The notes beneath the pieces were generated by a model that saw only the letters and a list, made by a program, of their open reading frames with translations, ran no database searches and had not been told where the DNA came from. Shown one piece after another: positions 7,501-55,300 of a DNA stretch of 64,000 bases; the first letter of the stretch is position 1, and every line of letters starts with the position of its first letter. The stretch comes from Owenia fusiformis. Taxonomy: Eukaryota > Annelida > Polychaeta > Sabellida > Oweniidae. The position numbers were made by a program, and so were the translations under genes. Where the stretch lies: contig CAIIXF020000001.1 in the NCBI GenBank assembly GCA_903813345.2, forward strand, positions 22,403,915-22,467,914, written 5' to 3'.

Positions 7501-10500
7501 GTTTTGAAGGAAGGTGCATCAATTTTTGTAAAATTCAAAACAAATCTTAAAAACATTTTTGGGTTGCTTATGCCACAATCGCAATCCCCCTCTCCTGACT
7601 GAACGCTGGCTGCACCCCTGATTTATAATTGCCATTATGACATCATAACATAACACAATCCAAATTAAATAATTTTCTATAGTTATTAGATTATTTTCTG
7701 TCATCATATTTTAAAAAGAATACATGTGTCAGTCAGCTAGTCAACATGTAAAATTTCCCAAAGAATTCTTTTTACATCAGATAGTTTTGCTACGTGCTGT
7801 AACCATAGCAACAGCATAAATTGGACACTTTCATTACATTTTTGATTCATTCAGTTTTTATGACCATGCACGTATGAATGAAATAAAATTATAAACTTAA
7901 CTTAAAGAAACAACCTAATTAATTAGTTAAAAACATTGCTGACTATTTTAAAGACAATAATTTCACAGATTAATACATCATGATTAAGATAAAATATGCA
8001 AGAACAAACATTTATGACGTCATGATCAATATGCAAATCATCCTATTTGCATAGTTTACTTACTGTCTGATTGCTCTATCTATTACCTTTGATTTGGTGC
8101 GCATTTCATCTAAATCTGAGCAATAATGAAGAAGATAGGGGCCAAACACTGAAAAGAGCCCCTAAAAGTGGGTGGGGCATATCTACTTTGTTACCATGGC
8201 AACGCCATAGTTGATTTAGAATTGTTAATATATCCTGATTGCATTATCTATAACTTTCAATTTGGTCTGAATTTCATCAAAATCTGAGCAATAATGGTGG
8301 AGATGGGGGCCAAACACTGAAAAGAGCCCCTAAAAACGGGCGTGGCATATTTACTTGGTTACCATAGCAACGGCATCGCAGATTCAGAATTGCCCATAAT
8401 ATTTCTTGATCATACTTTATATGTGTAAAGAAATAGAATGTAAATCAATCATTGTTTTCAGCTTTGACCTACTTTTATGGTGAATGTCAAAGGACAAGAT
8501 ACCAATTTGGAATCATCTTGAGCAATTTTACTTTATTTCAAGAAAATAATCACGAAACCAGCTATGGTAGTCATACCATAACAGGTATATCAGTCTGTCA
8601 ATCTACATTCCCCATGCATCGTCTGATTCATTAGTTTCCATTTGATGAAAATTTCATATACACCAGAGATATCATCATGACAACTGATAGAATCAAGACT
8701 TTGGAAAAGACCTGAAAAGTGGGGATGGCATATTCACCTGAATACAACAGCTAACATAGGCATAGCCAGGTGGTGTGATTGGGGCAACCCCCCCCCCCCA
8801 TTTACCAATAAAAATAGAACCATTACAGCAGGAGAGCCAAGACGTCATTTCCATTGTTCTTTCGGCAGAAGAGCTTTAAAAATGCTTTTGACTTGAAGCT
8901 TTTAGCTCAATTTTGAAGGAATTTTTGTAAAATTCAAGTCAAATTAAACTTTTTTGAGTTGCTTATGCCGATATCGCACGCCCTCCCCCCTGATTGAAAG
9001 CTGGTTGCGCCCCTGATTAATAATTGCCATTATGGCATCATAATATAACACAATCCAAATTAGATAATTTTCTATCGTTATTAGGTTATTTTCTGCCAGC
9101 CATCAAATTTTAAAAGGAATACATGTCAGTCAAATAGTCAAAATGTAACATTTCCCAAAGAATTGTTTTCACAGCAGATAGTTTTGCAACATACTGTTAC
9201 CATAGCAACAGCTTGAATTGGATATTTTCATTACATTTTTTCAATTTTTATGACCATACATGTATGAATGAAATAAACTAATAAACTCATCGAAAAGAAA
9301 TGAACTAATTAACTACTTAAAAGCATTACTGACCATTTTAAAGACAATAATTTCCCAGATTTATACATCATGATTAAAATAAAATATGCAAGAACAAACG
9401 GTTATGACGTCATAATTAATATGCAAATCACCTTATTTGCATATTTTATAAACCGTTTGATTGCTCTTTCCATGACCTTTCATTTGGTACAAATGTCACC
9501 TAAATCTGAGCAATATTGACGAAGATAGGGACCAAACACTGAAAAGAGCCTCTAAAAGTGGGTGTGGGATATTTACTTTGTTACCATAGCAACGCCATAT
9601 CGGATTCAGAATTGCCAACTTAATATTTCCTGATTGCATTATTCATTATCTTCCATTTGGTGTGAATTTCATCTAAATCTGAGCAATAATGACAGAGATA
9701 CACAGAGATACACTGAAAAGAGCCCCTAAAAGTGGGCGTGGCATATTTACTTGGTTACCATAGCAACGCCGTCGCGGATTCAGAATTGCCAACATCATTT
9801 TTCTTGATCAGTATCACTTCTAGTTCATGAAAACATATGTCGCTTAGCTCGCCTCTAAAAAGGACACGGAACCTCTTATTTGGACTTTTGCTCCCACACT
9901 ATGACTATTAAAATAAAATGATATGTTTGTTGTTTACCATGACAATTTTAGGTCTCTTGATGTGGTTTATTTACAATATTGAACAGTCTATCTTTAGAGG
10001 ATTGATAATTATATGCTCTACTAGTTTATGAAACACTACCTCCTGTGTGAGTCCTTGAATGTATATTCAGCAAAACCATCTGACATGACAAATTGTGGTA
10101 GATAGTGACTCTGCTTAGTCATGGTGGAGAGGCCTGTCATAATCACAGGTGTAATAGCTGTAGGGAAGCATGTTTGTGACTTGGGAAGAATTGCTTTCAC
10201 CATTACTCCAACCTTCATTGGATTCACTGAATGAAAGATTTGTAAACATTTACATTTATTTATTAGGTCATCGATTTGATTTCTTTGACTCAGGCATAAT
10301 ATCCCTCCAGATCTTTGTTCAAGACTTCCCAGATCTTTCCTTAATTCTCCAAAATCTTTGATCAAAGATCTCTTGACTTGCCACATATGCAAACGAAGAT
10401 CTCTTAGCTTACCACATATGCAATCAAAGATCTCTCAACTCACCACATATACAATCAAAGATCTCTCAACTCACCATATTTACAATCAAAGATCTCCATC

Positions 10501-13500
10501 TCAACACATATGCAATCAAAGATCTCTCCACTCAACACATATGTAATCAAAGATCTCTTAACTCACCATATATACAATTAAAGATCTCTCAACTCAACAC
10601 ATATGCAATCAAAGATCTCTCAACTCACCATATATACAATTAAAGATCTTTCAACTCAACACATATGCAATCAAAGATCTCTCAATTCAACACATATGCA
10701 ATCAAAGATCTCTCAACTCAACACATATGCAATCAAAGATATCCCAACTCAACACATATGCAATCAAAGATCTCTCAGCTCACCACATATGCAATCAAAG
10801 ATCTCTCAACTCACCACATATGCAATCAAACATCTCTCAACTCACCATATATACAATCAAAGATCTCTCAATTCACCACATGTGCAATCAAAGATCTCTC
10901 AGCTCAACACATATGTGCTCAAAGATCTCTCAACTCACCACATATACTATCAAAGATCTCTCAGCTCAATACATAGTACTATGCAATCAAAGATCTCTCA
11001 ACTTACCATATATACAATTAAAGATCTCTCAACTCAACACATATGCAATCAAAGATCTCTCAACACATATGCAATCAAAGATCTCTCAACTCACCAAATA
11101 TGCAATCATAGATCTCTCAACTCACCATATACAGGGTGTCAAATAAGTCCCGTCCCCCCCCCTACAGCCAAAACAGGAAAAGATGGTACATAGTGTGATA
11201 TACCATTGGAAAGATCGTCCAAAGTTAAGTTGATTGGCATATATCTGACACTTGTCAATCAATGTCACAAATTGCTACATTGTTGCAATTAAGGTGCCCG
11301 TATATATAAAAAGGCGGCAATTCAGCAGATTTTTGAAAACCAGGCATCAGTAATGCCATTCAAGAAAAGTCTGTCAAGATGGCAACATATGTATCTGATA
11401 GTGAGATACAACAATTTGTAGATAGAGTAAGATGTGTTGCATACAGAGAGGCAGTGGACAGTGGTGCAGACTTTATTTGTAAGAAATGGATAGCGAAGAA
11501 GATTAAAAGATCTGACAAGTTTGTTCAAAGATGCTGGAAAAAGCCGTATGATGAACTTGTTACACAATCAAGATGTGGTGCTCCCGAAGTCCTTTCTCCT
11601 GCATCAAAGGAAGTTATATGGGATGGATCAGCTAAAAAGAGAAAGAGTTGTACTGAAGTGGCCAGAGATATCAAGATGAAGCGTGGCAAGGTGGTGTCAA
11701 GACAATTGGTGCACAATTATCGTGTTCGCGAAGGCCTTAAGGCATGGCACATTATTCCTAGACCATTGAAGAATGAATCCCAAAAAGCAGATCGCCTTTG
11801 GTTTATTAACTTTTTGAGAGATTGGGATGAGGATGACTTCCTCCATTTGGCTCCTTCTGATGAGTTTTTTTGTGTATACAATAAGAAAGCCAAACCATCA
11901 GAATGACCGTGTATGGGCTAAACGGCGTGATGATTGTAGTGATTTGCTAGTGCGAGAACAGTTGGCATGGCCCCAATGCATAGGGATTTTCCTCTTATTT
12001 ACGGCAAAGAAGATGATGTGGATTATTAAAGAGGATGGTCAGAAATGGACCGGGGATTACTTCCGTGATACAGTTTTAAGGGGGAGGGTAATACCCTTTC
12101 TAAGAAATCCTCAGAATGTGATTGAGCCATCCCAAGTGACTTTGTTACATGATAAGGCCCCTTGTATGAAGGCATTGGCTACACAAGATCTCCTCAAGCA
12201 GTCAAAAATTGACTTTTTTGGGAATGATGACTATCCTAGTAATAGTCCGGACTGTAATGCGTGCGAACATATGGGATCCATAGTTAAGGATAGAACAGAG
12301 GCACTTATGGATGAGGAACCCATAGAGAACAGAAATTCAAAGGATGCTTTATTAAAAAACTTGAAGAAAGTACTAAAAAGTCTTGAAAATGCACATGAAC
12401 TTTTTGACGTTTTGCTTAAGTCATATCCGTCTCGTTTTGACGCCATAAAAGCTGCTGGAGGGGGACATACCAACTATTAAAGAAATCATCAGAATAAAGG
12501 TAAATGTCATCTAAACTACTTGAGAGTTGGTGAGTTAATGTAACTTTGGATGATCTTTCCAATGGTATATCACACTATGTACCATCTTTTCCTGTTTTGG
12601 CTGTAGGGGGGGGGACGGGACTTATTTGACACCCTGTATACAATCAAAGATCTCTCAACTCACTACATATGCAATCAAAGATCTCTCAACTCACCACATA
12701 TGCAATCAAAGATCTCTCAACTCACCATATATACAATCAAAGATCTCTCAACTCACTACATATGCAATCAAAGATCTCTCAACTCACCACATGTGCGATC
12801 AAACTTACTCACCACATATGCAATCAAGGATCTCTCAACTCACCACTTATGCAATTAAAGATGTCTCAACTCAACACATATGCAATGGAAGATCTCTCAA
12901 CTCACCACATATTCAATCAAAGATCTCTCAACTCACCACATATACAATCAAAGATCTCTCAACTCACCACATATATGATCATCTTCATCTGAGCCATCTT
13001 GGCAGTCCACAATGCCATCGCAACCCTACAATCAAGAAAAGCATATCTATCATATGACATATATACTTCTGTCACTACTACCAGTATAGTAAATATTTTT
13101 CATGTTCTTAATGAGTTACATGGGTTAATGATTTCAAACGTAGTATTTCATACCAACATTGAATGTATGCATTCTCCTGAGTCCCTGCAGCGAAACTGTC
13201 ATTTCCTTGCACAATGGTCAGCTGAAGTCAGGAAGTGTAGATGCAAATGATCACTTCTCAGGTGTTAACTTCAAAAGTTATTCATACTGAGAGGTAAATT
13301 TTGTCACTGTATTCCAATAGGAGTTTTCTCTAGAATCAGTATTCTTCTCAAATTTGAAATTTTACTATCAAAATATTTATCTTGTAAGAGCTTTGAGTGA
13401 GATTATAGCAATGTATTTTAAGTTGTCCTTCAATATAACAAGGAATTCCAAAGCAGGAAGTACCCCAAATCCTTGCATATCCGTTCATATAATTTTCGCT

Positions 13501-17122: not shown

Positions 17123-17248
17123 CTTGTGCGAATATATAGAGTAAACTAAAGAATTATTCTAAACAAAACCTTTTTCTAATGTGAATATCTTGCAAATACC
17201 TGAAGTCTGTGATAAAACTCATGAACATTTGTATTATTCAATGATGTT

Positions 17249-17540: not shown

Positions 17541-17790
17541 ACTTCAATGTTGTTGGATAGATTGATTATAAATATATATGATAAGAATAAGTGAATTGAT
17601 AATATATAATTATATTATGGAGAAACTATGAGTACCGGGTTTTAGGAGGATTAATAGCCGAGGGCCAATAGCCCCAATGCTATCAATTTGATTTCGTTTG
17701 TATTGACTATGAGGTAAGTGTTTTGAGAAGTGAGTGGGTGTAATTAGTTCAGCTTCAGTGCACTGCATGTAAGAGGTCAGGAACAGTTTA

Positions 17791-22675: not shown

Positions 22676-25600
22676 ATGGTAATAGATGAATTATCTCATG
22701 TTGTTAAGCATAGCAATTTTCATGTGTTTCAGATTGTTTCTAAAAAGCCAAATGGTCTTTTCCTAACTAGACTACCATTTGAGTACAAGTCAATCCACGA
22801 TGAAGTGTTTCCACCTGATGCTATAAAGTTATTGGACCAATGGGCAGATATAGTCAGAGTAGAGAGGTATGTTAAACAATATATTGATACTGGAACTAAT
22901 GTATCAGTGATCTCCCCAGCATTAAAGCAAGTGGGTGCAGCACCCACCTGAGATTTGAAAAACAGGCTTGCACCAACCTGAAAATCCATTTGTACCCACT
23001 TGAAATGAGAAAAATTATGAAAAATTGGCATATTTTGACTTATTTAAGTCTGTATTGTGAATATGAGAATTTTGCACTCACTTGAGGAAATATCCTGTGG
23101 AGAACACTGTATTATCTAGAAATTGAAGATTGCCAGCAATGTCACAGAGAGGCCATGTGAGAATGAATCCTACTTTGATAGTCTGCTCTTAGAATAAAAA
23201 AAAATTAGATTACTAAGATCTGGACATGATTGTAAGGAGTTTGGGTTGTCTGTTAGTTTGACCAATTTCTGCTCACTTTATGTTTACAGAGGTCAGTTCG
23301 CATTGATAGCTTTCATATAACGGGTCATATATAGAACTTCACTGGAGAAATGTTTTTCAATATGTGTGCTCAATTCAAGATAACTGCCATTTCTCATATA
23401 AGATTTATCTTTGATACCACCCCTTGACATATTTAGTTGACGTTTTATACACTGATACCTTAAGGACATATGACTACTGCTCTTGTAGAAATTTTTTTTT
23501 CAAGACATGATTTTTTGATATTTAACAGTTATCAGACTTGGTCTTAATTTTACAGGTCAATTATATGCCTTATGGTCATAGAAGTATGTATTTTGATTTA
23601 TGACAATTTATCTGATTTTTTCAGTGGAGTTGGAGATATGAAAATTTTGTTTCCTGTTGCTGGTAGTTCCCCTGTAGTAGCCCCAACCCCCGCCACCCAG
23701 CCAGCCCCCCAGAGAGCACCTCAAGATCCAGCCCCCTCAGCCAGAACTGTTGTGATGCCAGCAAAGGAGACTAATGGACATGCTTACATAAATATTACTG
23801 AAGACGTGAGGGTGCCTCCCCCTCATCTTCCTTTAATCAGGTCTGTATCTTGTATCTTAGTTTGCATTTGAATTTCATTCAAGTTGAATATACATGTATA
23901 CATGTACATACATGAATTTATCGTATGATCTGTAAAATGAAGCCTTCTGATTGGTCAGTTCTTGTGCTGTACCAATCTGTATTGGTACTGAGATTGTCCC
24001 CATTGATCATCTCCGTCGCAATACAGAAAATATTGGTACGGAGGGGACATTCTCAGTAGTAATACAGAGGATCACACAATAAAAACGTTATAGAATGATT
24101 TGAAGTGCAATACAGGATATATTCTGCTCGAGAAATTCTGTATTGGAACGAGACGAAGTCGAGTGCCAATACAGAATATCAAGATCGATAACTTATCAAT
24201 CAATAACTTATAATACATGTGCACCCGGAGGTGTGGATATTACAATATTGTCCAGTTTTCTTATTTTTAGATACATGTACTGACTTTGAACTATTTTATT
24301 TATTCTTGGTATGACAATTTCTCAATACCTTTCTTAGTTTTATAGTCAATTTTGATCAGTTCTGATACAAAATGTACATCCTTCAAAAAGATAAGAGTGC
24401 TCCCTCTAAAATAAATTTGATTTCATGAAAACATTTTTGCAAGTTACAAAGTATTCTAAATTAAAAGTACCTGTGTTTGTATAATATAATTACAAGTTAT
24501 TATTCCATAATAGCATAGGGAATAGAAGTGATATTTGAAAAATCCTGTATCAGATTCCATATTCATATTCCATCCCTCCATTAAAGAACCTCTATGTTTA
24601 ATGTTTATCCAACCTAATATCAACATCCTATGATTCTTTGTTATTTTCAGATCTAACTTTAGGGTGCTGATTAGCAACACTGAGTCTATAGATGACTTCT
24701 ATGTTCAGATCAGCGCTAATTCTCAACTTCTCACAGAGTTTTCTAAGCAATTAAATGATATTTATGAAGTAAGCATATTTGACTAGTTGATATTCAATAA
24801 AAACATAATGATAAATACAGAATAGTAGGCAGTAAATGATATCACTCAAAATGGTACATTGCACAGATTTTATATGAGATTTTATTGTACAGATAACACA
24901 ATGATAGTGAGATAAAATACAATATTTTTAATTGATTTTCATTTAAATTTTAACTTGGGCTATTTCCAATTTTTTTTTCTGCCTTTTAAAGTATTGACCT
25001 TAAATATCGCCCTAATTTTAAGTAGCTTTTTGAACATGTTTAAACCATTATGGATTTAAATCTGATGTATTTTCTGCGTCTATTACTTACTTTAATTCTA
25101 TTCTTGCCTATTCAGGCCAGTGTTCCCCCTAAAGTGCTATCAAAACCAGAGGTTGGGACTTACTGTGCAGTATGCTTTGAATACGAGGGTGAGCCTGGTT
25201 GGTACAGGGCGAAGATCACAGATTGCACATCGGGAATAGTAAGAGTCCTTTTATTTACCTTTCTTTACATTACAAAGTACTATTTTCTACAAGCTGTTTT
25301 TCTCAGATTTCATTAATGCTGATATTTTGTTTTGAGTTTGAAGATTCATTCAATATCATAGTTACTGTTTTATGGGTTCACCTCATTGTTTACTGTATGC
25401 ACATAATAGTACCATTTCTCTAGAAATGGAAACATATTTTATACCACCAGACACAAAGAGGTGCCCACAAAGCATCTTTGCACTTTACACAGACTTTGTA
25501 TTGTAAATGTAAAGAGATTTTATGGACACCCTGTATAATATTGTTTCACATTCCAGGAGGGCAACAGAGAATACACTGTGCTATTATGGACACCCTGTAT

Positions 25601-28600
25601 AATATTGTTTCACATTTCAGGAGGGCAACAGAGAATACACTGTGCTATTATGGACACCTTGAATAATATTGTTTCACATTTCAGGAGGGCAACAGAGAAT
25701 ACAGTGTGCTATTATGGACACCCTGTATAATATTGTTTCACATTCCAGGAGGGCAACAGAGAATACACTGTGCTATTATGGACACCCTGTATAATATTGT
25801 TTCACATTTCAGGAGGGCAACAGAGAATACACTGTGCTATTATGGACACCCTGTATAATATTGTTTCACATTCCAGGAGGGCAACAGAGAATACACTGTG
25901 CTTTATATAGACTTTGGTAATTCTGAAAAGATAAAGGCAAACAGACCTAGGAGGCTTCTCCCCAAGTTGGCTGAGGTCCCAGCACAAGCAATTAAATGTA
26001 CACTTGATGGGGTATTCCCAAAGGGGGTATGTATTTTCAAAGTATGTCATTTGATCACCATTCATATGCAGTAGTAAAAGTTGCTTGTAGAATATTTTAG
26101 TTTACAAACACCCAATAGCAATATGTCTTAATCATGTTTTGTATTACTTTTGGGACATTCTGTATTTTGAATGAAATTAAAAGGGTTTTCATATGCAGAA
26201 GTTAAATTTTTAGACAAAATAGATATATTTTATAGACCTATACTGACCAGTAAATATATGTAGATCCATATTAGACCCTCAATAGGCCCATGATATGAAC
26301 CCTTAAGACAGCCAAAAGACAAATGATAGACTTTGGTGTTTATTTGTGCCTTTCATTGATATTTTTCATGGTTAAAATTGTTGCATAAACAATCTGAGAA
26401 CAGCCATAAAATGGGAGAAACCAAGCTTTTCTGAAGAAGGTATGAAAGGATAATCTGGACATTAGGCTGTACTTCTCCCAATTTAGATGTGGAACAATTT
26501 CCTAAATTTACTTCACCATTCAGACAAATTTGATGTAAATTGTGATATATATCTGCGTACAAAATTACAAAAAGTCCATGTAAATAAGTTTACAGAGTGC
26601 AATAATATCCCTCCAAGATTATTTCCAAGCTTGTCAAGCATTCATTGTAGATTGCATTGTGTATTGCTTAGCTTACATCATATGCAGTTCATGGGTAAGT
26701 ATATAGTATAGCAAAATGAACATGAGCCAAGACTTATTTACGTGTATTCTTAATTAGCTGTTGTACCCAATTTTATATGTCTCCTAACCCTACTATCATA
26801 CCAAACTAGTTCTCACTACGTTCTCGAAAATGGGCTTCAACTGTGTACGAACGGACTGGACGTACTAAGAACCGTTTGGGATCTATTTACAAACTTCATC
26901 GAACGTACTTGAACGGGTAGGTCCTCTAGAACTTAGACAATGCTCAAAATGTTTTCGTGGTCGTCACGTTCTACAATTAGAACGAGTGACAACGTACTAA
27001 CGACGAGCTGGACGTACTACGAACGGAACCGTCGTACTTCAATCCTACTAGGGACGTTTTAACAACGAGTGGAACTGTCTGAGGACGTGTTGAGAACGAG
27101 GTAGAACTCATTGCAAACGGGTTTAAACTGATTAAGAACGTATCTAACACTGCTTATGAACGAGTTAGCAAAAATATAGCTATCACACCAAACAGGTTGC
27201 CACTTCGTTCTTGAAAACTGGTTCTAAACTGTGTGCGAACGGAATGAACGTAGCTGCAACTTTCTAAGGTCTATTTACGAACTTTATGAACGTTCTCAGA
27301 CGGGAATGTGATTTTAGAATTTTGAATCGATTCAAAATTCGATTGCGACCATACCGTTCTGTTAACAGGTCATGATGACCTTCTAGACTAAGGGACGCGT
27401 TCTACGGCGTTGCACACCGACGTGGTGCGACCTGAACGAACTGCGAACGAGATGGACGTATTGAAGACTGTTTAAGAACGAAGAAGCTAATTATTTCAGA
27501 CATATTTCCAGACCACAGCCAGTTTGAGCCCGTCTTACGACGTTTTCGTAGGACTGGCAAGAACGGGTAAGAACGAGTTTGGTGTGATAGGGGGGTTAGC
27601 CTACTATGAAAAGAATCAGATTCGTCACATGTGGCATAAATGATAGGATGCTCGAATGTTCTTTAATTTTCAAAAAACAGAGGCGCCATCATCAAATTAA
27701 GATTTTGTACTTTTTATCTTGTTATCTTGTATTTTATGTAGACATGCTAGCGTCTAATGTCTTAATGTTGTATTTCTAATCAAATTTGTCATTTTCATTT
27801 TTGATCAGTTTAATCAAAATCAGCGATGAGTACGACTAGAGTGACTTGATATTATGTACCAGCCAAATAACTTCCTCTTTTACTAAAAGAAGTATAAGAG
27901 GGGTGATCAATAAGTAATGGACTCTTTTTTACACCGATGCTTTTTATCGACCAATCTCTTCGATTTTCTTACCAGTGATACATCATTCAATTATCTATCA
28001 ACTCTGAGGATTTGAAAACAAAACATGTAATGTACAGGGTGGGCCAAAAAATTTTGCAACTTTTTTAAAAGGCTAGAAAAGTATCAAAACATAAGGGTAT
28101 TGCCATAAAAAATTATTTACAGAAACTTGAGGATAGGCATATTTTACCAGTCAAATGCTAAAGCTAAAACTGGCTTAAATTTTCTTTGTCAGATCTTTGA
28201 ATATCAATGGTCAATTGTTCATGTGTCCGAGATTTTCCATTTTTCCTAGAAAATGTGACTTTCTATGATTTTATGTGATCAACAATAACACATTCATAAT
28301 GTTCACTAAATCTGCTACAATCTTTGATAACTGTTTAAACAATGCCTACCTCAATGTCTAGTTTATATCAGTATCTAGTCACTATGGTATTATGTTATAT
28401 TGTATTTATTAATTATCTATTAAACAAATGTTCTATGCATCCCCTTTCACCTTCCCTATCGCTCCCAGCCATCGGGCAAAAGTCACTTTGGAATATCTGG
28501 AGGAGAGTAAGCCTTTATTCATTACTCCTGATGAATGGCTGCCAAATACCCCAGATGCCAACTCCTGTGACTATCACTATTGGGGGCACCTGGAGCAGCT

Positions 28601-31600: not shown

Positions 31601-34600
31601 GGAAGAGATGGATGCATACTATGCCAAGAACCCCCATGAGAAACTCACGAATCCACCAGAAGTTGGCAATGTATACACATTCTTTGATGAGGACAGCTTA
31701 TACAGAGTACGGGTCCTCAAGAGCCCAACTGATGAGGTAAGAATGATGAGGTGGATGTGAACATGAGGTTAACTTTTACATGCGGTTAAGTTTTACATGA
31801 GGTTTACACAAGGCTGAGGTTAACATAATGTTAAAATTTACTGTATTTGAATATCAGTTTTCCATGCTGTGGTCTAAAATGTGGATGATATGTCAGGTGT
31901 GTTTCACTATGTATACTAATAATATGTACATGACACAGTTTGGTCTATAATGTGTTCTATATTACAGTAGAACCTGTGTAAGTGGAACACCCTCTGTTCT
32001 GCCAAATAGCATTCTACTTTGGAGGTGTTCCACTGACGGAGGTTTTGGGTTTGTACTTGATGTGTTATATCATTATTTGATGTGGTCTGTACTACAAGTT
32101 ATGTTTTATGTTACAGGGGGTACAGTGTTTTTTCTTAGACCATGGTGACACAGACTATGTTGAACTGAAAGAATTCTATCACATGAAACCAGAATTCCTC
32201 AAGCTGCCATATCAGGTATTTCTGCATCCTTGCATCAAAACTCTTCTTTAACTGTCAACTGTCAATATGTCTTGTACATGTACGTATCTTTATTTCTTCT
32301 CTAGAGCATGGATCAACTGTGTTGCTTTTAAAATTATTCTAAAACTTGCCCCGACATGTGTATTTGAATTGTATGGATGTACTGTTTGCATGTACATGTT
32401 CAATACTGTACAGGGTGAGCCATTTTATTTTGCTTTTTCTAAACTGATGTAAGTATGGTCTCATCCTCTTAAATGAATTTATGTATGTCCTTTACATGTA
32501 CTTTATGTTTGGCTTGATATTGTAAACTGTTATAAGTCTTGAATCCTCCATGAGTCAGTATTCTGACATGTTGTTTTCACAGGCGAAAGAGTGCAGTCTT
32601 TGTGGCCTAAATCAACTTACCAACAATGAGAAAGTCTTAGACAAACTAATCAGTATGGCCCTTGCTAAATGCTGCATTGCTGAAGTGGTGGAACGGTAGG
32701 TATCATTTGCCCTATTTGAAATTACTCATTTCTGAAAACCCCAATGTTTAATATAGATATGAAAGCACAGTGTTTTAAGAGGACAGATCAAAGAGTAATT
32801 ATGAAACAGGCCAAGTAAAGGAAACACCTAAGAGCACAAACTGTCATCCAGAAGACAAAGCATTGAGCTTATTTCTGGGAAGCACCCTGTAATAGGGTAA
32901 AGTAAAATAATGCTTTTTGCAACAATGCTGAAATGTATTTAAACTAGAAAAAACTATTGATATGACAAAATGGCAAATCGGAGAGTGTTATTTCAATGAG
33001 GTGAATAATATTTTATTTACTACATAAGGATGAGCAAATATCTCTGAGGCACTCACTCATAAGAAAGAGCACGGCTGAAAAAAAACTGCTTTTTGCAACA
33101 ATACTGAAATGTATTTAAACTAGAAAAACTATTGATATGACAAAATGGCAAATCGGAGAGTGTTATTTCAATGAGGTGAATAATATTTTATTTATGACAT
33201 AAGGATGAGCAAATATCTCTGAGGCACTCACTCCTAAGAAAAACAAACTATTGATATGACAAAATAACCAAACAGAAAGTATGATTAATATTTTATTTCT
33301 TGCATAGGGGTGAGCGTATTTCTGTGAAGCTCTTTGATACATCAGGAGAAGAAGATATATACATCAATGATGCAGTCACTGTTGATGTTCTTGATACAGA
33401 CCTCGCACCACAAATACCAGAGGTAATTAAAGTGACAATGCTAGCTGAATGCTAAGTAACTGATATCTCAGATTTAAACATGATATATATTACCAGAGTG
33501 ATGAATTTACACAGAAATGAAATATAGTTTTTGTCATTTACAGGGTGTCTCGAAAGTATGGGGCCCTTCTAGACAGGCATATAGCAGTGTCTTCATAGAA
33601 TGCGTCATATGTCATTTTAAAACCTATCCAAAGTTACATTGATTCACCAAGTGTCATGGTTCAACTCTGAAATGTGAAAAAATTACAGGCATTTCAAAAT
33701 TTAGTGTTTGGCCAAAATTAAGTTCAATTTTACACCAAATTACTCGTTAATGTGTCCTCCCGAGCCATCAGAACAGCAGCAATTCTTTTCGGGTCAGATG
33801 GATATTGATTTGGAAAAAGAGAACGGTGAGGGTAGAAACTCTAAGGAAACTCTCCTAAAGTGCTGTAAAAGGTTTTAAGAGGAAAAATTCCACACCCCTT
33901 CTATTTGAAGGGCTTTTAAGGTCATATCTGAAAAGAATTGATGCTTTATTTTGGCCAAACACTTAATTTTAAAATTACTGCAACTTTTTCCCATTTGAGA
34001 GTTGAACTTAACCATAATACTTGGAAAATCAATGTAACTTTGGATAAGCTTTAAAATGATATATGACACTTACTATGATCACTGATCATGATTACTTTCT
34101 GATTATTGTTATAAGACCATTATTGCAGAGTAGCTAGAGCAAGTGACATTTTTGGCAATAAGATATACGGTCACCTATTTCCCATAAATTATAGAATCGA
34201 GTTCTTTGTTATATTCCAGTATGATAAACATTAACCAGAAAAACAACTATTTGCATCTATGAAATTTGATTAATTGGTTTGTCATACATACCCCATTATA
34301 GACAAGCAAAACAATTTTTATTGTGATGTCACATAGCATCGTTTATATTCCTTAGGTTGGTGGTGTTATTGAAGGCTATGTTAGCTACATGACAGAGAAT
34401 GGTCTCTTATATTTCCAAATTATCGGGCCTGGCTTAGACCGTTTGGAGGAACTGATGGTGAAGATCACAGACCATTATTCAAAGGTAAGTTTATAATTAA
34501 GAATGTCAGTTAAAACATTTTTATTATTGTGTTACTTTGAATTTTCTGAATTGGAAGTTAAAAATTAAACTGAAAACCTATTAATCCCCAATAGAACTAT

Positions 34601-37600: not shown

Positions 37601-40600
37601 TATTGATTGAAATTGAAGAAAACTTGAATAAGTAGAAACGTTGTAATTGTGTGACTGTTCTTGTTGGCATAAATGTAACAAACAAGGTGTTGCAAAATAT
37701 TCTTACAGAATAGGCACGATCCTTGTAAAAATGTTCTATGACAACAAGCATCAGTTGGTTTGACTCTCATTATACATTGTACTTCATTACACTTGTTGTT
37801 ATGTCACTACCAACAGAAGTTGTAACATATTGTAATAGTCTCCAACTTTTTTGTGGACAGTGTTTTGCATTTTTAATGGCTGTTTGTGTTTGGTGTCTGT
37901 AACAAATTTGTATGGTGTCGTACAGTGCCTGTAACAAATGGCAGGTAGATGTTCTGCATAATGCCTTGTTGTTTTTGTTGGTATCCCTGTGGTGATTTTA
38001 TGTCACCTGATAGTCTCTTTGTGCTGGACTACACTGAGCCTGTAACATCAAACATAAACACCAATTGATGTTTCTTTCAGGCCCCCTGTTCCTTCAGATA
38101 ACAATCCAATAGATGATATATCCAATGAAATGGCTCACAATTTACACCTTGACACTGTTGACTCCCCAGTACTTACCCCTGAACCCCCTGGCCCAGATGG
38201 TGATGGAATAAAGAACAAACAAAAACAGAATCCTAGTCGATATATTGCAAGTATGCCTGGTTCTTGCGATGACAATGACAATGTGACAAGTGAAATTATA
38301 GAACTGGACCATAGTGCAACAAATGATACCATTGAAGTTATTAGTCTAAACTCAAGTGCATCAGATAAGGATGAGTCTGTGATATTTATTGAGGAGAGAC
38401 CTCCATCTAATGAGGCTAGAACTGTGACTCCTACATGTATTATAGAAAAATCTCCACCTCTTGATACTACGCCTGATAAAGCTACATGTATGGGTGCCAA
38501 TATAATTAAATTATCCATACCCATGCGTAGCGGGGAGATCCCTATCAAAGGAAAATCAGACATATCTGGGGAAATCAATAGTTTACCAGTACCACCTAAG
38601 CTGGTGCTGCCACCTCCTGGTGAATACTGGGACTGCAATGTTACTTATGTTTGTGATCCTTCAAATTTTATAGTAAGTGTATTATTTTTTGGTTGATAAT
38701 AGTGAATTTTTTAAATTTTGAAATAAAAAATATGATGATTTTTAATTGCTTAATCAAAGGCTGGTATCGAAAGATTTGTCCGCTGTGACGGAGCATGTTA
38801 TTTTTCATAAAAACACTAAGAAAACCACACAAATTATTTTTAACTTTAATATGTTTTTTTATACCAAAGAAAAATACTTACTCCATGCAATGGATCTTGC
38901 GGGTAACTCTCACTTCTGTTTGAAGTTTGAAGAAATAACACTGGGAGGAAAAGCTATTGAAAGTGGGGCCGGAGTATCATACTCCAAAATATACCATTTC
39001 TTGTTTAACTTTTTAATGGCACGATATATAGTGACACAACAGTATTTACATGTTTTCAGCATAACTATGAAGGTATAAATGAGATATTGATGTATTGGGT
39101 CTTTTTAATTCTTTTATAAGAAATAATGTTCACATTTTTTTGTCCGCTGTGATGGAGCAGTTGCAAATGTGAACTATGAAACTGCTCCGTCACTGCGGAC
39201 AAAAAAATGTAAAAATTATTTTTTATAAAAAAACTAAAAACACCCAATACATCAATAACTCATTAACCCTTTCCCGACGTGAATATAAGAGGAAAATGTT
39301 GGCTCTGGTGACGGATAAGTAAGAGCAGTTTTTAGGGGAAAACTGCAAAATACCTACGCCCCGGGACCTATACCCTGAATTTTATCACTGAAATACAATT
39401 TTTAGTAAGGATTATCACATTAGAACAACTTGTCAAAATTTGGTGTAAAAATACTGAATAGAACTGGAGATATTGTCATTTCATTGATGTATTTAGATAA
39501 AAATAATGGTGCCAAAAGGAGCCTATCGTCCTGAAAGGTATTACATAATAGGGCTCCATATGGAGCCTATCGTTGTGAAAGGGTTAATACATTCAGAGTT
39601 ATGCTGAAAACATAATTATGTTAATATTATTGTGTCTTATTATGCCATTAAAAAGTTTAAAAAGAAATGGTACATTTTAGAGTTCGATACTCTGGCGCCG
39701 TTTTCAATAGCTTTTACTCCTAGCGTTATTGGACTTCAAACAGAAGTGAAGGTTACCCGCAAATGATATATCCATTGCTTAGAGTAAGTAATTTTCTTTG
39801 ATATAACTAAACATATGAGTTAAAAAATAAATTGTGAAGTATTCTTAGTGTTTTTATGAAAAATAGCATGCTCCGTCACAGCGAACAAATTTTTCGTTGC
39901 CAGCCTCATGTTAATGTAGAACTGACTACACTACTAGAGGGAATATGCACAAAATGGTTTAAACCAGGAAAGTTCAATTCAAATAAATTTCACATATGAA
40001 TTCATGTTTGTTTTAGTGCATACCATTTGAGAGCATGTCTGACCTAACAGTGATGATGAAGGGTCTCAGTGATTACTATAGCAACCCAAGTGACCTCACA
40101 ATGGGGGAACTCCAAGTGGGTCAACTCTGTGCTGCGTTCTATGAGAACCTCTGGTACAGGGCTACCATACATGCAGTCCTTGGCAATATGAAGCAGGTAA
40201 TGGCTTACTTATATGGGTACACATATAGAGGATATTCTTGGGGGGGATTGTATATTGGGTTTATCTTGATGAAATGTTATCTTATTCATGGTAAAATTCT
40301 TGTGATCTGATTGCAGTCTACATTGGTGTCTGTCTACTTTGTGGACTATGGTGACTTTGGAGTTGTACCAAAGAAACACTTGAAACCCCTGGTGACTCAA
40401 TTCAGGCAGCTACCATATCAAGCAACAAGAGTACAGTTGCAAGGTGAGTAGCTTGAGTTTTACCAATGTAAGAGTACAGTCGCAAGGTGAGTAGCTTGAA
40501 TTTACCCAAGAGCACAGCTGCAAGGTGAGTAGCTTGAATTTACCCAATCGTAGTGTTGTCGCGATTAATCGATACATCGCGATATACATCGCCAAAACTG

Positions 40601-43600
40601 ATTCTGGCGATGCATCGATGTCTGAAACAAAACATCGATGTTTTTAAAAAAAATTAATTTGCGATAAATCACCCTTTCTTATCTTATTTTGACGCAAATC
40701 GCTTACCTTTCTCATGACTTATTTCATTTTCCAATGTTTTCTGATGTTCTTTCCCTTTAAAACTGTTTTCGCTAGTCGAAATGAACCATTAATCTAAAAA
40801 ATTACTTTCATTTTGTTATTAGAAGTTCCCGGATGTACCACGCACTCTTATTATCCCACCGAACGAAGTTCGAGGGGGATATAGAAAAGCCGTCCATAAA
40901 TTCGTATACTAAGAAAGCTATAACAAGAAATAAATGGATATGTACTAAATACAATATGCAGGAGAATATCATCATGAAGCACTGGAAAATTAACGAGAGA
41001 AGAGAACATTAACAAATGAATATGAAACAGTATATTCTCCGCAAAGAGGGTAAACTAAGAGGACAAATCAACATAAGACCAACAGTAAGGGGAAGGGGAG
41101 AGTTTTCCGGCCGGATTAAAACGTTTAACCCACCTATGCGCAGTCTCAAGTCTGTGGACCCTGAAGAAAGATAACTAACATCGCAATCAAATCAAGACAA
41201 AGAAAGAAGAAAATAAATGAAGAAACCAATGCAGCAAAAACAAATGACGTCCGTCCGTTCGTCCGTCCGTCCGTTCGTGTGTCCGGGCAATAACTCAAAT
41301 ACCGGTTGACGGATTTCATTCAAATTTTATAGGCTTATGCCTTATGGGTGTAGGACCTCTGCTCGAGAAGGAATTTTCAATATGGCCGCTTAATTCAAAA
41401 TGGCGGCCATTTTTCGGAAAAAATATAATCTTTATTAACTCAAATACTAGTGGATGGATTTGGATCAAATTTTATATGCTGTTGCATTGGTACAAAGGAG
41501 CTTTGCTCAAGAAGACATTTTCAAGATGGCCACCAAATTTCAAAATGGCGGCCATTTTTCGTAAAAAAACGTTATCTTTGATAACTCAAAGACCATAAAA
41601 TGGATTTGGTTCAAATTTTAGATGCTGATGCCTATGGAGTATGGACATTGGAGCTCTGCTCAAGAAAGGATTTTCAAGATGGCAGCTAAATTTCAAAATG
41701 GCTGCCATTTTTCATAAAAGAACGTAACCTTTGATAACTCAAATACCAGTTGACGGATTTGGTTCAAATTCTATATGCTGATGCCTAGAGACAAAGAAGT
41801 TCTGCTCAAAAATAAATTTTCAAGATGGCCACTGAATTTCAAAATGGCCGCCATTTTTCGTAAAAAACGTAATTAATGATAACTCAAATACTAGTGGATG
41901 GATTTGGTTCCAATTTTATATGCTGATGTTTAGGGGAAAAGGAGATCTGCTTCTGAAGAAATTTCAAAGGCGATAGCTGAATTTCAAAATGGCTGCCATT
42001 TTTCATTAAAAAAGTAATCTTTGATAACCCAGATACCATTGGACGGACATTCTCTGCTAAAGAAGAAATCTAAAGATGACAGCTGAATTTCAAAATGGCA
42101 ACCATGTTTCATAAAGACATAATCTTTGATAATTCAAATACCAGTGGATGAATCTGGCTCAATTTTTTTATCAAAACATGTTTTGTTCGGTGGGATTTGC
42201 TACTCCGTGGAGTTGCTGTTTTTCTAGTTAATTGTTCTGTTCGGTATTTTAGTGCATTAGCGTTCGGTATTTCAGTGCAACTTGCTCGGACTTTTTCTCG
42301 ATGTACATCGCGATGTCCATCGATGTTTACTACTGAAAATTGCCGATGCATCGATGTATGATAATGGCACATCGCGACAACACTAACCCAATGTAAGGGT
42401 ACAGCTTCAAGGTGAGTAGCTTGAATTTACCCAATGTAAGGGTACAGCTGCAAGGTGAGTAGCTTGAATTTACCCAATGTAAGGGTACAACTGCAAGGTG
42501 AGTAGCTTGAATTTCCCTAAGAGCACAGCTGCAAGGTGAGTAGCTTGAATTTCCCCAATGTAAGAGCACAGCTGAAAGGCGAATACAATGTAATTTGAAT
42601 TTCACCAATGTCAGACTACAGCTGCGAGTGGTGTATATTGAATTTCCCCAATGTTAGAGTACAGCTGTAAGGCAAGTATCTTGAATTTCCCCTAATTTTC
42701 CTTAATCTGTCAATGACTTAGTTTATCTGTTCAAATGAAATCAAAGTTTCGTAGTTTTTCTGAATTTTCTACTACTACTAGCAGAAAATATTCAGAATGG
42801 AAAAGATTTTAAATATGATTTGCACGCCCAGTGATCGTGAATTTGGGATGGAGGGGGGAGCAGGCAATTTCTGCTAGGAAATTCAACAAATCTGGAAGAT
42901 TTATTTTTTCAAGAAAAAGTTTACTATTGAATTGGTAAATGGATAGGTGCACGGTATGGTAAAATATGTTAGGTTTTCTGGGATTTTTTCTGAAACACTA
43001 CGCATCTAAGGTATGAGATCTATTAAAAAAGGCGCAAGGCCATCAACAGGCACAAATCAACGTTTTTGCTATAAATCAAGCAACAATGGTCTGGACGACC
43101 TGTAATAAATACTTGTAAGTGATTTTATCATAACTAAATTAATGTCATTGCTGAATTTATAAAATAAGTTTCCATATGTGAAATAAAAAATAATCGAAAA
43201 TAATGAATTTGGGACGGAGGGGGGGGAGGGGACGGAGGGGGGAGCAATATGTATATAAGACATGATTAGAGATGTTTCGCGACTTTAAGTCCTTTTACTC
43301 CAAATGTCCCCATTTTTCAGTCTCCAGGGGTAGTGGTGTCAATTAACCGCTTGAGCATTAACCGGTTAACCGGGGGTTTTTACCAGTTAAAGTCTGTTAA
43401 CCGGTGGGAAATTTGAACTTATAATTTCAAATGAAATCTTCATCTTCGATCTTGAAAGTTGAAAAAATTGGAAAAATGATATATCGGCATTTATTTTTTA
43501 CGTTCGTCAAGCTTTACGCTATTCTATGTAAGTAAGCGCGGGAAAGCAATGTGGCAGGGATTAAAGTTGCTGATTGGATGTTTGTAAGGAATTATTGGAC

Positions 43601-48445: not shown

Positions 48446-49316
48446 TATGTGAATATTATTGATTACCAGGGAGTAGTCATTCCCTGGTATTGTTGAGGCA
48501 AAATATGGGACATCCAGAATGTCAGATATTTGATAGCATTATTCATGAATCATGAATTTATGTATATGTTTTGTATTCGGAAAATCACTTTGAATTGATG
48601 CTCCATTTGTAGCACGATTTGTACTTTTGTTGAAAACAATACATAAATCTGGTATTAAATCAATAATTCACATATTGCAGTAATGCGTGATCCTGATATC
48701 CAATAGTCATCCATGTTCACAGGTTTCCACACAGACATAGATGAATTTTTGATCACTCAGGAAATCATCATCACTTAAATAAGCATCCTGATAATAACTA
48801 AAGCATGTCAGAGGATGGAAGTTTTAATTGCATGTCACAATAGGCTATTAACTAGGGTACCATATTTGTTTCATAAGAGTAAGAGGTGGTAAAAATACCA
48901 TAAGTTCCCATACATATCTCTAATACTAATCTACTAGTGTTATGATTGCTCTAGTATATCAACACAAGAATATTGATGGATACCTTGAAAATCAGTAAAT
49001 AGCTGTTATTTTAATGATAAATTATACCTCCTCTTTGCTCTTAATGTATCGTAAGGTACATACCATTTATGGTGTCCATATTAAGTTGTAATACCTGTAC
49101 TTGTATATTTACACCCCCAATCTGCAACATCATCTTGCAGCGCTGTAAACAGTACTGAACAGAGCTGTTTAAGCACTGCGCTGTACAGCACTGTTTCAGA
49201 AAACAGCGATGTACAGTACTGTTTTTACAATGCTGTCCAGTACTGTTTCATAAACAATGCTCTATGGTGCTGTTTGAGATTGGCAGTGTATTGATCTCAA
49301 TATTGTCTTTTATTAG
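48446..49316. other. intergenic; CTGT-rich tract at 49137-49280
   Basis: Mostly AT-rich sequence between the convergent Tudor and coiled-coil genes. From 49137 to 49280 there are many copies of ACAGTACTG, GCTGTACAG and CTGTTT in both orientations, able to form several small hairpins. It probably includes the 3' UTR of the minus-strand gene. Confidence 0.4.
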
Positions 49317-52300
49317 CTAAGCAATAGAGACAAGTTCAGTGGCTGCCTCCTTTTCTTTCCGTTTCTTCTTCTTTTTCTTCTCTTCATCAATAACAGTCTC
49401 AATAACCTCACCATTTTCCTGCTCTCCTTTCTTGTCCTTCTTCTTCTTTTTCTTCACCTTTTTCTCAGCATCTTCTTCGATGTTATTGTTATCAATTTCT
49501 ATAATTTGGTATTTTTCCTCAAGTTGTTTCTTTTTCTTCTTTTCTTTCTTACTGATAGGTGGCTCTGATGGTTGTTCAGTATTTCTTGATAGAACCATGT
49601 CATCTGGGGCCTGATGAAGCTCAACTTCTGCACGATTTCTTGTCGCTGATTTTTCTCGCTTCTGGGCTATTTTTTCTTTCATTTGCTCACGCTGCCTTTC
49701 CTGCTCTTGGACAATACTGGAATTTCAAAACAGATTTAACCCTTAATATATTTTGAAATTAGTTGCATAATGTAAAATGAATAGATTGGATGAATGTGTC
49801 ATCTTTTTATCATTGTTATGTCACCACCAAAAGTGGTGACATATTGTTATGGTCTCCGTTTTTTTGCGACGGCGTCCGGCGGTTGGTGGTTGGCGGTTGG
49901 CGTCCGGCGGTTGGCGTCTGTAACAATTTCTTACAACTTCCTATAACTTAACAAATACTGTTTAGACTGACTTCAATTTTTTTCTAAATCATCTACATGT
50001 TCTCAGAAGTTCAAATCTGACTTTAGATTTGACATTTGACCTTCAATGACCTTCTCAAGGTCAAAAAGGTCTTTTTTCAACTTGCTTCACATTGACTAAA
50101 TTTTTTTTCAAAATCATCTACATGTTCTCAGAAATTCAAATCTGACTTTAGATTTGACATTTGACCTTCAAATCTGACTTTAGATTTGACATTTGACCTT
50201 CAATGACCTTCTCAAGGTCAAAAAAGGTCAAAAAGGTCTGTTTTCAACTTGCTTCAAATTGACTAAATTTTTTTTTCAAAATCATCTACGTGTTCTCAGA
50301 AATTCAAATCTGACTTAAGATTTGACATTTGACCTTCAATGACCTTCTCAAGGTCAAAAAAGGTCAAAAAGGTCTGTTTTCAACTTGCTTCAAATTGACT
50401 AAATTTTTTTTTCAAAATCATCTACATGTTCTCAGAAATTCAAATCTGACTTAAGATTTGACTTAAGATTTGACATTTGACCTTCAATGACCTTCTCAAG
50501 GTCAAAAAAGGTCAAAAAGGTCTGTTTCCAACTTGCTTCAAATTGACTAAAAAAAATTTTCAAAATCATCTACGTGTTCTCAGAAATTCAAATCTGACTT
50601 TAGATTTGACTTAAGATTTGACATTTGACCTTCAATGACCTTCTCAAAGTCAAAAAAGGTCAAAAAGGTCTTTTTTCAACTTGCTTCAAATTGACTAAAT
50701 TTTTTTTTCAAAATCATCTACATGTTCTCAGAAATTCAAATCTGACTTTAGATTTGACATTTGACCTTCAATGACCTTCTCAATGTCAAAAAAGGTCAAA
50801 AAGGTATTTTTTCATCTTGCTTCAAATTGACTAAATTTTTTTTCAAAATCATCTACATGTTCTCAGAAATTCAAATATGACTTTAGATTTGACATTTGAC
50901 CTTCAATGACCTTCTCAAGATAAAAAAAAAGGTCAAAAAGGTCTTTTTTCAACTTGCTTCAAATTGACTAATTTTTTTTTTCAAAATCATCTACATGTTC
51001 TCAGAAATTCAAATCTGACTTTAGATTTGACATTTGACCTTTAATGACCTTTTCAAGGTCAAAAAAGGTCAAAAAGGTCTTTTTTCAACTTGCTTCAAAT
51101 TGACTAAATTTTTTTTTCAAAATCATCTACATGTTCTCAGAAATTCAAATCTGACTTTAGATTTGACATTTGACCTTCAATGACCTTCTCAATGTCAAAA
51201 AAGGTCAAAAAGGTATTTTTTCATCTTGCTTCAAATTGACTTAATTTTTTTCCAAAAATCATCTACATGTTCTCAGAAATTCAAATCTGACTTAAGATTT
51301 GACTTTAGATTTGACATTTGACCTTCAATGACCTTCTCAAGGTCAAAAAAGGTCAAAAAGGTCTTTTTTCAACTTGCTTCAAATTGACTAAATTTTTTTT
51401 TCAAAATCATCTACATGTTCTCAGAAATTCAAATCTGACTTTAGATTTGACATTTGACCTTCAATGACCTTCTCAATGTCAAAAAAGGTCAAAAAGGTAT
51501 TTTTTCATCTTGCTTCAAATTGACTAAATTTTTTTTCAAAATCATCTACATGTTCTCAGAAATTCAAATATGACTTTAGATTTGACATTTGACCTTCAAT
51601 GACCTTCTCAAGATAAAAAAAAAGGTCAAAAAGGTCTTTTTTCAACTTGCTTCAAATTGACTAATTTTTTTTTTCAAAATCATCTACATGTTCTCAGAAA
51701 TTCAAATCTGACTTTAGATTTGACATTTGACCTTTAATGACCTTTTCAAGGTCAAAAAAGGTCAAAAAGGTCTTTTTTCAACTTGCTTCAAATTGACTAA
51801 ATTTTTTTTTCAAAATCATCTACATGTTCTCAGAAATTCAAATCTGACTTTAGATTTGACATTTGACCTTCAATGACCTTCTCAATGTCAAAAAAGGTCA
51901 AAAAGGTATTTTTTCATCTTGCTTCAAATTGACTTAATTTTTTTCCAAAAATCATCTACATGTTCTCAGAAATTCAAATCTGACTTAAGATTTGACTTTA
52001 GATTTGACATTTGACCTTCAATGACCTTCTCAAGGTCAAAAAAGGTCAAAAAGGTCTTTTTTCAACTTGCTTCAAATTGACTAATTTTTTTTTTCAAAAT
52101 CATCTACATGTTCTCAGAAATTCAAATCTGACTTTAGATTTGACATTTGACCTTTAATGACCTTCTCAAGGTCAAAAAAGGTCAAAAAGGTCTGTTTTCA
52201 ACTTGCTTCAAATTGACCAAATTTTTTTTTCAAAATCATCTTCATCTTTTCAGAAGTTCAAATTTGACTTAACAAGTTATCAGAAATTCAAATCTGACTT

Positions 52301-55300
52301 AAGTTTGAACTCATAATATTGTGAGCAACTAGGTGGTGACATTTTGTCATGTTAATGCCTTGTTAATTTAGAAAGTGTTTGTGTAGATTTTTGTGCTGTC
52401 TCCTTGTATCTTAGGCAGAACAGAATTTTACATGGGATGATATACATGATAGTTGGTTCTACTGCTTCTTGAATTGCTATACCATGTGGTCTCTTTTGAC
52501 TATATTTAACAAGCAAACAAAGAAATAAAATTTCATTTACGTATTTTCTCTCTGTGCAGCTTGATGAAGAAGTTCATAGGCCTTATCCCTCTTTTCCTGT
52601 TTCTTGGCCCTCTTCTGTTTTATGATCTCTGCCTGCCTTTGCCTCTCATTCTCAAACTGCACATTGTGGTTGTCCAGGCTGCTCATCATTTTGTCCCTCT
52701 CCTACGAGTACATAGATTAAATGGATAAAGTGTTTATCCTGAAGGAAATAAATTTATTTCCTCTTCATTCTCAAACTGCACATTATGGGTGTCGAGGCTT
52801 CTCTTCCATAATTTTTCCCTCTTGTCCAAATACATTTCAGAGGAAATAAGTTTATATCCTCGGCATACATACACATTTTTCATCATATCTTCAGGCTGAA
52901 GTATAGTTTGAAATAGGGTTATAGACTGGCAAGTTATGGATATAGGGGTTATTCTAAGTTTGGTTGAGATAAAGATATGTACCTCACTGCTCACTGAGAT
53001 CAGCATTGCTCATTGTTTTGCCTATATGAACAAAAACCATAGTAACAGCATGAAAGCCATGTTAACTGCTATTATAGAATACTTTGATATTGTGCTAAGA
53101 ATGTTTTGGATGCAACAACGTAGCATTTTAGTCTCTTCTTGATTGTGAGTTTATTGCAGTAGTTTATTGACATGTCTTTCGTCATTAAGTTGTAAAAGGA
53201 ATGTATTTATTGATCTGACCATGTTAGTTGATACGGAGCTATTGATTACTATAGCGTTGGTTCTAGAAGTTTACAGATATTCCCAGAGTTATTTATCTGT
53301 CAGTAGGTAAAATCATGGGATTTCAAGATAAAGCCCATGGTAAAATCATAATTCAGAACTGTTTTAACGCTTCTCATACAGAAAAATTTAATGCTTTTTA
53401 TTATTTTTTAATGCACCAAATAATGTTCATGTTGAATCCTACATTTTTTGATATGTATCATAAAACATATGGCCCAAAACAGTATCATTAATTCCTTTAT
53501 GCTATCTTTTTTGGCTGAGGACATTGGGTTAGAACATACAGGGCTGTCATCATGCATGTTTAATTGTGGTTTAGGAGTGCTCATACTTCGAGAGCTTACA
53601 TGTTAATATCTTATGTACTTAGAACTGCTTTGTCTACCAGTTTGACTGATGCTCCCAGGGGTGCGTTTATCTAAATTAATTCGTAATGATCACTTTTGTA
53701 TCTTTGGTATTCCAGACACATTGTTTGCCTTCAAGTTGGTATTGCACTATAAAGTTATTAGTTGGCCAGAGTTGATAGTTTAAGATAATGCTGTTAGGGT
53801 AGAAAGGGAAAATATTGATGATGTAAATGTGAGAAAAAAGAAAACTTGGAGGTTTATTGATCCAAGCTCTTGGCTAGAAATGAGGAATAAAAGGTCTATT
53901 ATTTATAATGTTTTACTTTTGTTAGCCCTGGGCAAATAAAGCGTTAAACATTCCTTGTTTTTCCGGAATTGTTTAGGGAATGAGGCGGCTTATTTTGCAT
54001 GTGGGAAATGGATCAAAGGAATGTTTTTATTTTCAATTTTTTTGACTGATTTATTGGGAAATTTTGTTGACATGCAATATGTTTGATATACAATCTAGTT
54101 TTGGTTTGGGTATGCCTGATAAATTAGAAAGGCACCACTTTTGGTTTGGCAAAAATGTTGTGATTATGTTCTCAGATTTACATTTGAATTACTCAATTCA
54201 GAAGTTTTTCTCTCAGTTGGACTCTGTGGACTTGTTACTTCTTTTATCACATTATGGATAGCAACATCATAGACTTATTATCCACATTGATCTGAATCTT
54301 GGTTCCAGCGCATAACAATGAGATGCATAAATGAAGTTTTATAAGATATTGATCATTTTATTGACAGGTAAATGGATCATTATTCACTTCCGGAAGGTTC
54401 CACTGAGGACAATGGGAAATCCGGATTTGATGGATATCAGATCAATAATAAGAAAATTGTTTGTATCACTTAGACATTAGAATTAGCAAAGAAAACATTG
54501 AATTGGAATATGGAACATTATCACAAAAAATAGAGTATACTCAGCCTAAAACAGATTTAGGAAGCTTGATTGAAACATTTTTCTTTACTGCAAAGTCATT
54601 CTCAGCTACATCATGATTTGCACTGAATTAAACGTTGGCCCTTACCTCTTCATAATATTTATTGACATCGGCAGGTGCTTTGCGTTCACCTCCAGGTATA
54701 GGTGTCCCTGGTATAGCCATCTCTAGTTCCACTGCCCTCATACTTAGATTGGTCCCGTCCCTCTGGGGCATACCATTATATGGTGACAGCGTGTCGGCAC
54801 GAAGATATTCTGGATTATGGAATGTCATTTCATTATGGCTACGACTGAGTTGCCGATTGTCTCCACGTGAAGTTGGATTTGCATTTGCACTTCCTGCATT
54901 AAATACAGCAGTGTGGGTGGAGTTAGAGGTACGATTTGGTTTACTTCCTGGTTCAGTACTTGCCCGGGCGTGACCTGGCTTAGCTTGTATAACTGGCTCG
55001 TGTATTGCATGCTCTGGTTTAGGTAGAACTGGTGTTATTGTTCGTTCTGGTTCTACTACTTCATTGTCATTTTTATTTTTTGATTTTAAAGGTTTCAACT
55101 TGCCAACCAGTTTAACAGGTGGTTCAGTTCGACTCCTAGGTCTTCTAGGACTTCTTGTTTTTGGTGATTCTTCTGATTGGACATGGAATGTGGCCGCCAC
55201 CTTGTGTTCATTTTCAGCATTGCGAGAATGTCGAGCTGAGTGACGCTCATGGGGAGTCATTCTTCCAGGATATGGACGTTTAGGTTCTTTGCCTTGTTTA

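Follow-up and report, generated by a model that had tools for sequence, protein, structure and literature searches.

The 64,000-nucleotide stretch of the Owenia fusiformis genome analyzed here (the window; contig CAIIXF020000001.1, positions 22,403,915 to 22,467,914) holds three genes, an LDLa gene, a Tudor gene and a coiled-coil gene, in which splice junctions recur inside intronic repeats. An exon edge and its splice site are part of the unit in four tandem arrays and part of one duplicate that has since diverged, as seen with Tandem Repeats Finder (TRF), in the sequence and by alignment (Table 1), and as repeats they are far above chance. A sequence-only reading of the window had described these five repeats, had placed the working site in the copy next to the exon, and had held that the repeats differ in unit and age. 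The sequence agrees with these points: all five repeats are present, the presumed working site, contiguous with the body of the exon, lies in the outermost copy of the window repeats, and the arrays do differ in both respects, with similar arrays elsewhere in the genome. The intronward extension of the extra copies offers no independent evidence, being a consequence of how the exon-adjacent copy is defined. We argue below that the window repeats are probably mirages, that is, minisatellites with a unit that by chance includes an exon-intron boundary, and that random tandem duplication and selection account for them.

Exons in the window were listed by eye from permissive ab initio gene models, and several exon peptides that end or start at an exon-adjacent site show homology. 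The LDLa exon, on the minus strand, ends in atcatatatgtg followed by gtgagttg at 12968, and its peptide matches Pfam Ldl_recept_a weakly (E = 0.00079; 20.0 bits, under the 24.1-bit cut-off). The array behind it is interrupted by an insert that we take to be mariner-like from its ends and the adjoining TA. Two exons of the Tudor gene at junction arrays match the Pfam TUDOR profile. The donor array of this gene is also interrupted, by an insert that is presumably hAT-like, judging from its ends.

Table 1. Exons, junction-spanning repeats and mobile inserts in the window.
Feature	Positions	Strand	Details
LDLa donor array, distal	10361..11131	-	TRF: 31-bp unit, 24.9 copies
Presumed mariner-like mobile insert splitting LDLa array	11130..12638		Inverted ends TACAGGGTGTC/GACACCCTGTA adjoining TA
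LDLa donor array, exon-proximal	12637..12974	-	TRF: 31-bp unit, 11.1 copies; predicted working donor at exon end 12968
Tudor acceptor array	25520..25906	+	TRF: 64-bp unit, 6.1 copies, 96% matches; predicted working acceptor before 25877
Tudor-domain exon, acceptor in last array copy	25877..26026	+	Pfam TUDOR, E = 5.3e-10
Two decoy copies of 175-bp unit	32904..33241	+	Hold acceptor and start of next exon; 96% alike over 163 columns
Exon-adjacent third copy of 175-bp unit	33241..33345	+	68-69% to decoys; predicted working acceptor before 33308
Tudor-gene exon behind 175-bp repeat	33308..33422	+	Gene model
Tudor-domain exon, donor opening the 38-43-bp array	40317..40443	+	Pfam TUDOR, E = 8.3e-21 joined with 40017-40196
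Tudor donor array, exon-proximal	40426..40547	+	TRF: 38-bp unit, 3.1 copies; exon end 40443
Presumed hAT-like mobile insert splitting Tudor donor array	40551..42385		Ends TAGTGTTGTCGCGAT/ATCGCGACAACACTA; contains 145/299-bp tandem array
Tudor donor array, distal	42386..42692	+	TRF: 43-bp unit, 7.1 copies; donor motif broken in last three copies
Coiled-coil exon	52541..52701	-	Acceptor adjoins 52701
Diverged upstream copy (single) of the coiled-coil exon's start with its junction	52757..52860	-	Alignment

Two of the five repeats were assessed by alignment scores. The third copy of the 175-bp unit scores 88 against its decoys, compared with a maximum of 49 in 500 shuffles. The exon part of the coiled-coil copy scores 71, compared with a maximum of 33 in 2000 Markov-simulated pairs; aligned with gaps across the junction it scores 103, a value for which no null was run, and it reads AC where the acceptor has AG. 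A Pfam search found no match for the coiled-coil exon, nor for the exon behind the 175-bp repeat when joined with its neighbor. About 26 of the 64 bases of the Tudor acceptor unit are exon. Divergence of the boundary copy from the inner copies is seen for the 175-bp unit (inner 96%, boundary 68-69%) and is not evident in the 64-bp array, which stands at 96% throughout. Tandem arrays are difficult to assemble, and one might suspect assembly artefacts or collapsed haplotype differences here; this is hardly credible, because the copies within an array are not identical, different mobile inserts interrupt two of the arrays and the pattern is found on several contigs.

Some further repeats lie near these features. 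Most 64-bp units (25520-25906) carry the sequence GACACCCTGTATA in their intronic half, and it stands also at the end of the mariner-like insert and its flank (12628-12640); because both share it, the amplified unit may include the end of an old mobile element. A further mariner-like end, TACAGGGTGTC, is found at 33539. An array of 136-bp units, 2.2 kb long (50057-52270), stops about 270 bp short of the coiled-coil exon. Similar tandem duplicates of 168-174 bp at 5494-5825, 8067-8392 and 9477-9808 are apparently one dispersed repeat, internally duplicated, and two 16-bp arrays at 57295-57389 and 58239-58331, near reverse complements about 850 bp apart, resemble mobile-element ends.

Junction arrays of this form recur in other genes. 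The 498-Mb assembly (525 contigs, of which C1 to C12 measure 32-62 Mb each and 477.5 Mb together, C1 carrying the window, and C244 measures 25 kb) was searched for perfect tandem pairs of the donor 9-mers CAGGTGAGT and AAGGTAAGT placed 12-42 bases apart, with the same 9-mers read backwards as controls. We fetched 22 donor loci, namely 15 clusters among 100 of 101 AAGGTAAGT matches listed and seven CAGGTGAGT places among the matches listed of 190, together with 13 control loci, taken from the roughly 34 clusters that the backwards motif TGAATGGAA forms, namely those with at least two matches. Among the 22 donor loci, 12 have a modelled exon scoring at least 10 that ends near the 5' end of the array, vs 0 of the 13 controls, where the maximum was 6.4; the score is indecisive by itself, since reversed sequence reached 10.4, 10.6, 11.6 and 11.8 in four cases. 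Because these loci were chosen for a splice motif, the set shows the nature of the arrays and not their frequency.

The array-adjoining exon has Pfam or PDB homology in eight of the 22 loci. The homologous exons belong to UDP-glucose dehydrogenase (UGDH), I-set, Got1/Sft2, Rieske, fasciclin, NCS-1 and PSME4, and a P450 exon matches weakly, below the cut-off (E = 0.0029). In three loci (L019, L022 and L025) the best-scoring model differs from the exon that homology supports. One UGDH exon (L008; G000:C2:33703000-33705000) has arrays at both ends, of 130 bp x 6.7 over the acceptor and 45 bp x 12.7 over the donor. Little or no exon is repeated in some cases: the PSME4 array (L015) begins at the donor, one or two bases ahead of it, and that of L103 about five. 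Pfam searches of the exons at L009, L024 and L016 found no match, and L014, tentatively DIP2, gave no Pfam match and no significant PDB match. An exon at the array is possible in L010 and L021, and none was convincing in L007, L013, L017, L020, L023 and L026 to L028, L027 having no array above the TRF threshold. Acceptor readings within this donor set, at L007 (10.9) and the second array of L014 (14.0), are unconfirmed candidates.

Donor-like sequence is kept in many decoys, and it is reasonable to ask whether the arrays serve splicing, as decoys that adjust the choice of splice site or the retention of the intron and that selection maintains. In the Tudor donor array GGTGAGT is kept in rows 1 to 7 of ten, the exon-proximal ones, and lost in the last three, and in the donor array of an exon neighboring an RRM match (L057) 89% of 9 copies retain the GT. 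In the LDLa array, by contrast, 63% of the 35 copies, which are not independent, have an intact donor GT, and this dinucleotide is among the least conserved, with 1 of 30 lower. The frequency of junction arrays is moreover not above background, as described below, and the lancelet repeats were reported, in the portion of that paper we draw on, to leave regular splicing undisturbed (PMC3087553). We consider a splicing role very improbable, and because copies within one array are not independent we make no claim of selection on decoys.

The frequency of junction repeats was estimated from exons sampled without regard to repeats. A profile search for RRM exons, in which 150 of 289 candidates were scored, gave a list of 121 matches. 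We used 104 of these, 21 from 30 cut loci and another 83 from 80 short loci that were taken irrespective of repeats. Left out were seven cut loci with large open frames or overlaps (L044, L045, L047, L049, L051, L054 and L058), one twin of another locus (L071, of L070) and one with a stop in the match (L057), as well as eight of the 91 other matches, which had large open frames or were exons in or beside loci already included. A simple rule gave 189 edges (93 acceptors and 96 donors), and direct repeats were defined by shifts of 12-350.

Seven of the 189 edges lie in direct repeats vs 291 of 5253 intronic positions 60-200 bp away (5.5%), and the bootstrapped ratio of edge to intron repeat coverage has a median of 0.65 (0.26-1.33; 188 flanks). 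The sequence-only reading had named such an outcome, edges lying in repeats no oftener than intronic placement would give, as grounds for abandoning its proposal, and this is what the RRM sample yields. Examined by eye, three of the seven edges (L062, L103 and L140) are junction repeats and a fourth (L083) probably is; the rest are one whole-exon duplication seen twice (L050/L063) and a coding repeat (L139). With four cases the junction-repeat rate is 2.1% of edges (0.6-5.3%), below the intronic rate. The corresponding binomial p is 0.037, a value that takes no account of clustering and compares edges checked by hand with positions that were not, and with all seven edges it is 0.34. Because edges in this sample lie in repeats no oftener than intronic positions do, no special splice-site process is needed.

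The donor motifs lead to a similar view. A few large arrays dominate the match counts, and for this reason we counted clusters instead of matches. Pooled clusters per 9-mer number 20 in about 8,066 for the donor motifs (0.25%) vs 38 in 13,422 for the backwards ones (0.28%; Fisher p = 0.69), and for AAGGTAAGT the donor figure is the lower (15/7133, 0.21%, vs 34/11820, 0.29%). A strong preference for donors was not seen. The exon share of the unit ranges from 0.06 to 0.92 over 19 arrays and fits a uniform distribution (Kolmogorov-Smirnov p = 0.64), as random breakpoints predict; 10 of these 19 arrays come from the set selected for perfect donor copies, and three of the shares are too low (T43, 0.06 from a wrong shift and about 0.42 by eye, and L009 and L062, from gapless comparison). 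A twentieth array, T175, was dropped from this test since TRF reported no period close to its exon edge.

The principal alternative, favored by the sequence-only reading, is that DNA spanning splice junctions is amplified by a specific process, such as slippage or break repair directed by the structure of nascent RNA. In its favor are the occurrence of the arrays across many unrelated genes and the UGDH exon with arrays at both ends, and several of our figures weigh against random placement. Raw tandem pairs of donor 9-mers exceed the backwards control, 2.8-fold for CAGGTGAGT (190/4855, 3.9%, vs 22/1602, 1.4%) and 1.7-fold for AAGGTAAGT (101/7133, 1.4%, vs 102/11820, 0.9%). Clusters of CAGGTGAGT are also more frequent than those of its control, at 5 of about 933 on C1 and C2, with occurrences estimated from length (0.54%), vs 4 of 1602 genome-wide (0.25%). 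A modest preference at true donors remains compatible with the cluster counts because many occurrences of the 9-mers are not real donors, and the edge sample comes from one family, the RRM genes, with edges set by a simple rule. Of the 58 edges of 29 hand-chosen exons in the window, 4 fall in direct repeats by an ungapped criterion that misses the fifth feature. This proportion is more than the 3.3% coverage of positions 60-200 bp from edges, though not more than the 9.8% of intronic positions in gene spans as a whole. The window was chosen for the feature itself, so its edge rate is not an unbiased one, and above-chance placement of its repeats at edges is not shown. Against the targeted process stand the lack of an edge excess in a sample unselected for repeats, the lack of a pooled cluster excess and a position of the junction within the unit that fits a uniform spread. 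We therefore do not uphold the claim of a process aimed at splice junctions, which we consider quite unlikely.

The explanation that we prefer, random tandem duplication followed by selection, would proceed as follows. Short tandem duplications with random breakpoints would arise throughout the noncoding DNA of a repeat-rich genome, whether by slippage or by end joining, and the duplicates would then expand and homogenize as in any minisatellite. Where a unit spans a donor or an acceptor, the gene would survive provided that splicing takes place at the copy contiguous with the body of the exon. Purifying selection would thus keep that copy, while the remaining copies would turn into intron. 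We infer the mode of duplication, the selection and the splicing at the exon-adjacent site only. A wider proposition is that some animal genomes, among protostomes as well as chordates, commonly and persistently carry junction arrays, at perhaps 1-5% of exon edges and somewhat preferentially at true donors, and that these arrays serve as a reservoir for new splice sites, exons and introns; we would give this only a small chance of being right.

Some side observations concern other genes of this genome. Creatine-kinase-family frames of 432 codons on C10 (L001) and 440 codons on C1 (L002) are intronless, other members of the family were matched exon by exon, and the best match of L001 is to mitochondrial creatine kinases. 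Three mir-2 matches above the Rfam cut-off and one below it form one cluster on C3; the prokaryote control matched once, below the cut-off. As mir-2 is specific to protostomes, the cluster makes a lancelet origin of the sequence unlikely. Searches for GFP (PF01353), which lancelets possess, and for COX1 (PF00115) yielded no candidate, with the GFP control matching nowhere, and the phosphagen kinases did not distinguish between phyla.

In intron gain by tandem duplication, a duplicated exon segment provides both ends of the new intron. Both there, with potato RdRp (PMC4974935) and Drosophila (PMC2891723) as examples, and here the duplication involves splice-site sequence, whereas here an existing junction is duplicated and the units already hold intron sequence. 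Ordinary intronic minisatellites likewise form tandem units in introns, grow as arrays and are unstable. Earthworm metallothionein genes, for instance, have minisatellites in intron 1 and untranscribed duplicates of exon 4 (PMC12783039). The present arrays differ in having an exon edge within the unit, and the accessible part of the earthworm report describes no repeated junctions (PMC12783039). The excerpted text of a Conus paper (PMC3862624) holds nothing of the boundary-repeat kind, and among the titles and abstract openings of the open-access papers listed by our search we found no boundary repeats from a protostome, which is no proof of their absence in print.

The closest known system is found in lancelets, and the statement in the sequence-only reading that no system of this form had been described is contradicted by it. 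As far as the available portions of these papers go, mirages were published as tandem duplications of exon/intron boundaries in Adh3 and the globins BflGb6 and BflGb9 and proposed as a route to intron gain (PMC3087553), and PGBD5 and TnC are added by a further paper (PMC3902484); the units measure 10-160 bp, and boundary copies in BflGb6 are excluded from homogenization (PMC3087553, PMC3902484). The Owenia arrays share the form of these lancelet repeats, with copies over a 5' or 3' exon boundary, the gene's copy next to the exon and decoys in the intron. Tandem duplication crosses the exon-intron boundary in them, at donors (LDLa, Tudor 40443, L011, L012 and others) as well as at acceptors (25877, 33308, L062 and L008), and the unit varies between genes from 25 to 175 bp. 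The lancelet reports, in the sections we draw on, treat genes singly; mirages here occur in many conserved genes at about the ordinary rate of intronic repeats, which suggests a by-product of high minisatellite turnover and not a lancelet peculiarity, and supplies a null rate for testing claims of junction-directed duplication or recruitment. What distinguishes the present case from the lancelet reports is a protostome host, an estimated rate per exon edge and an exon with arrays on both sides, all known here from sequence alone. Thus, what is new is apparently the taxon and the numbers: a known kind of repeat in a new phylum.

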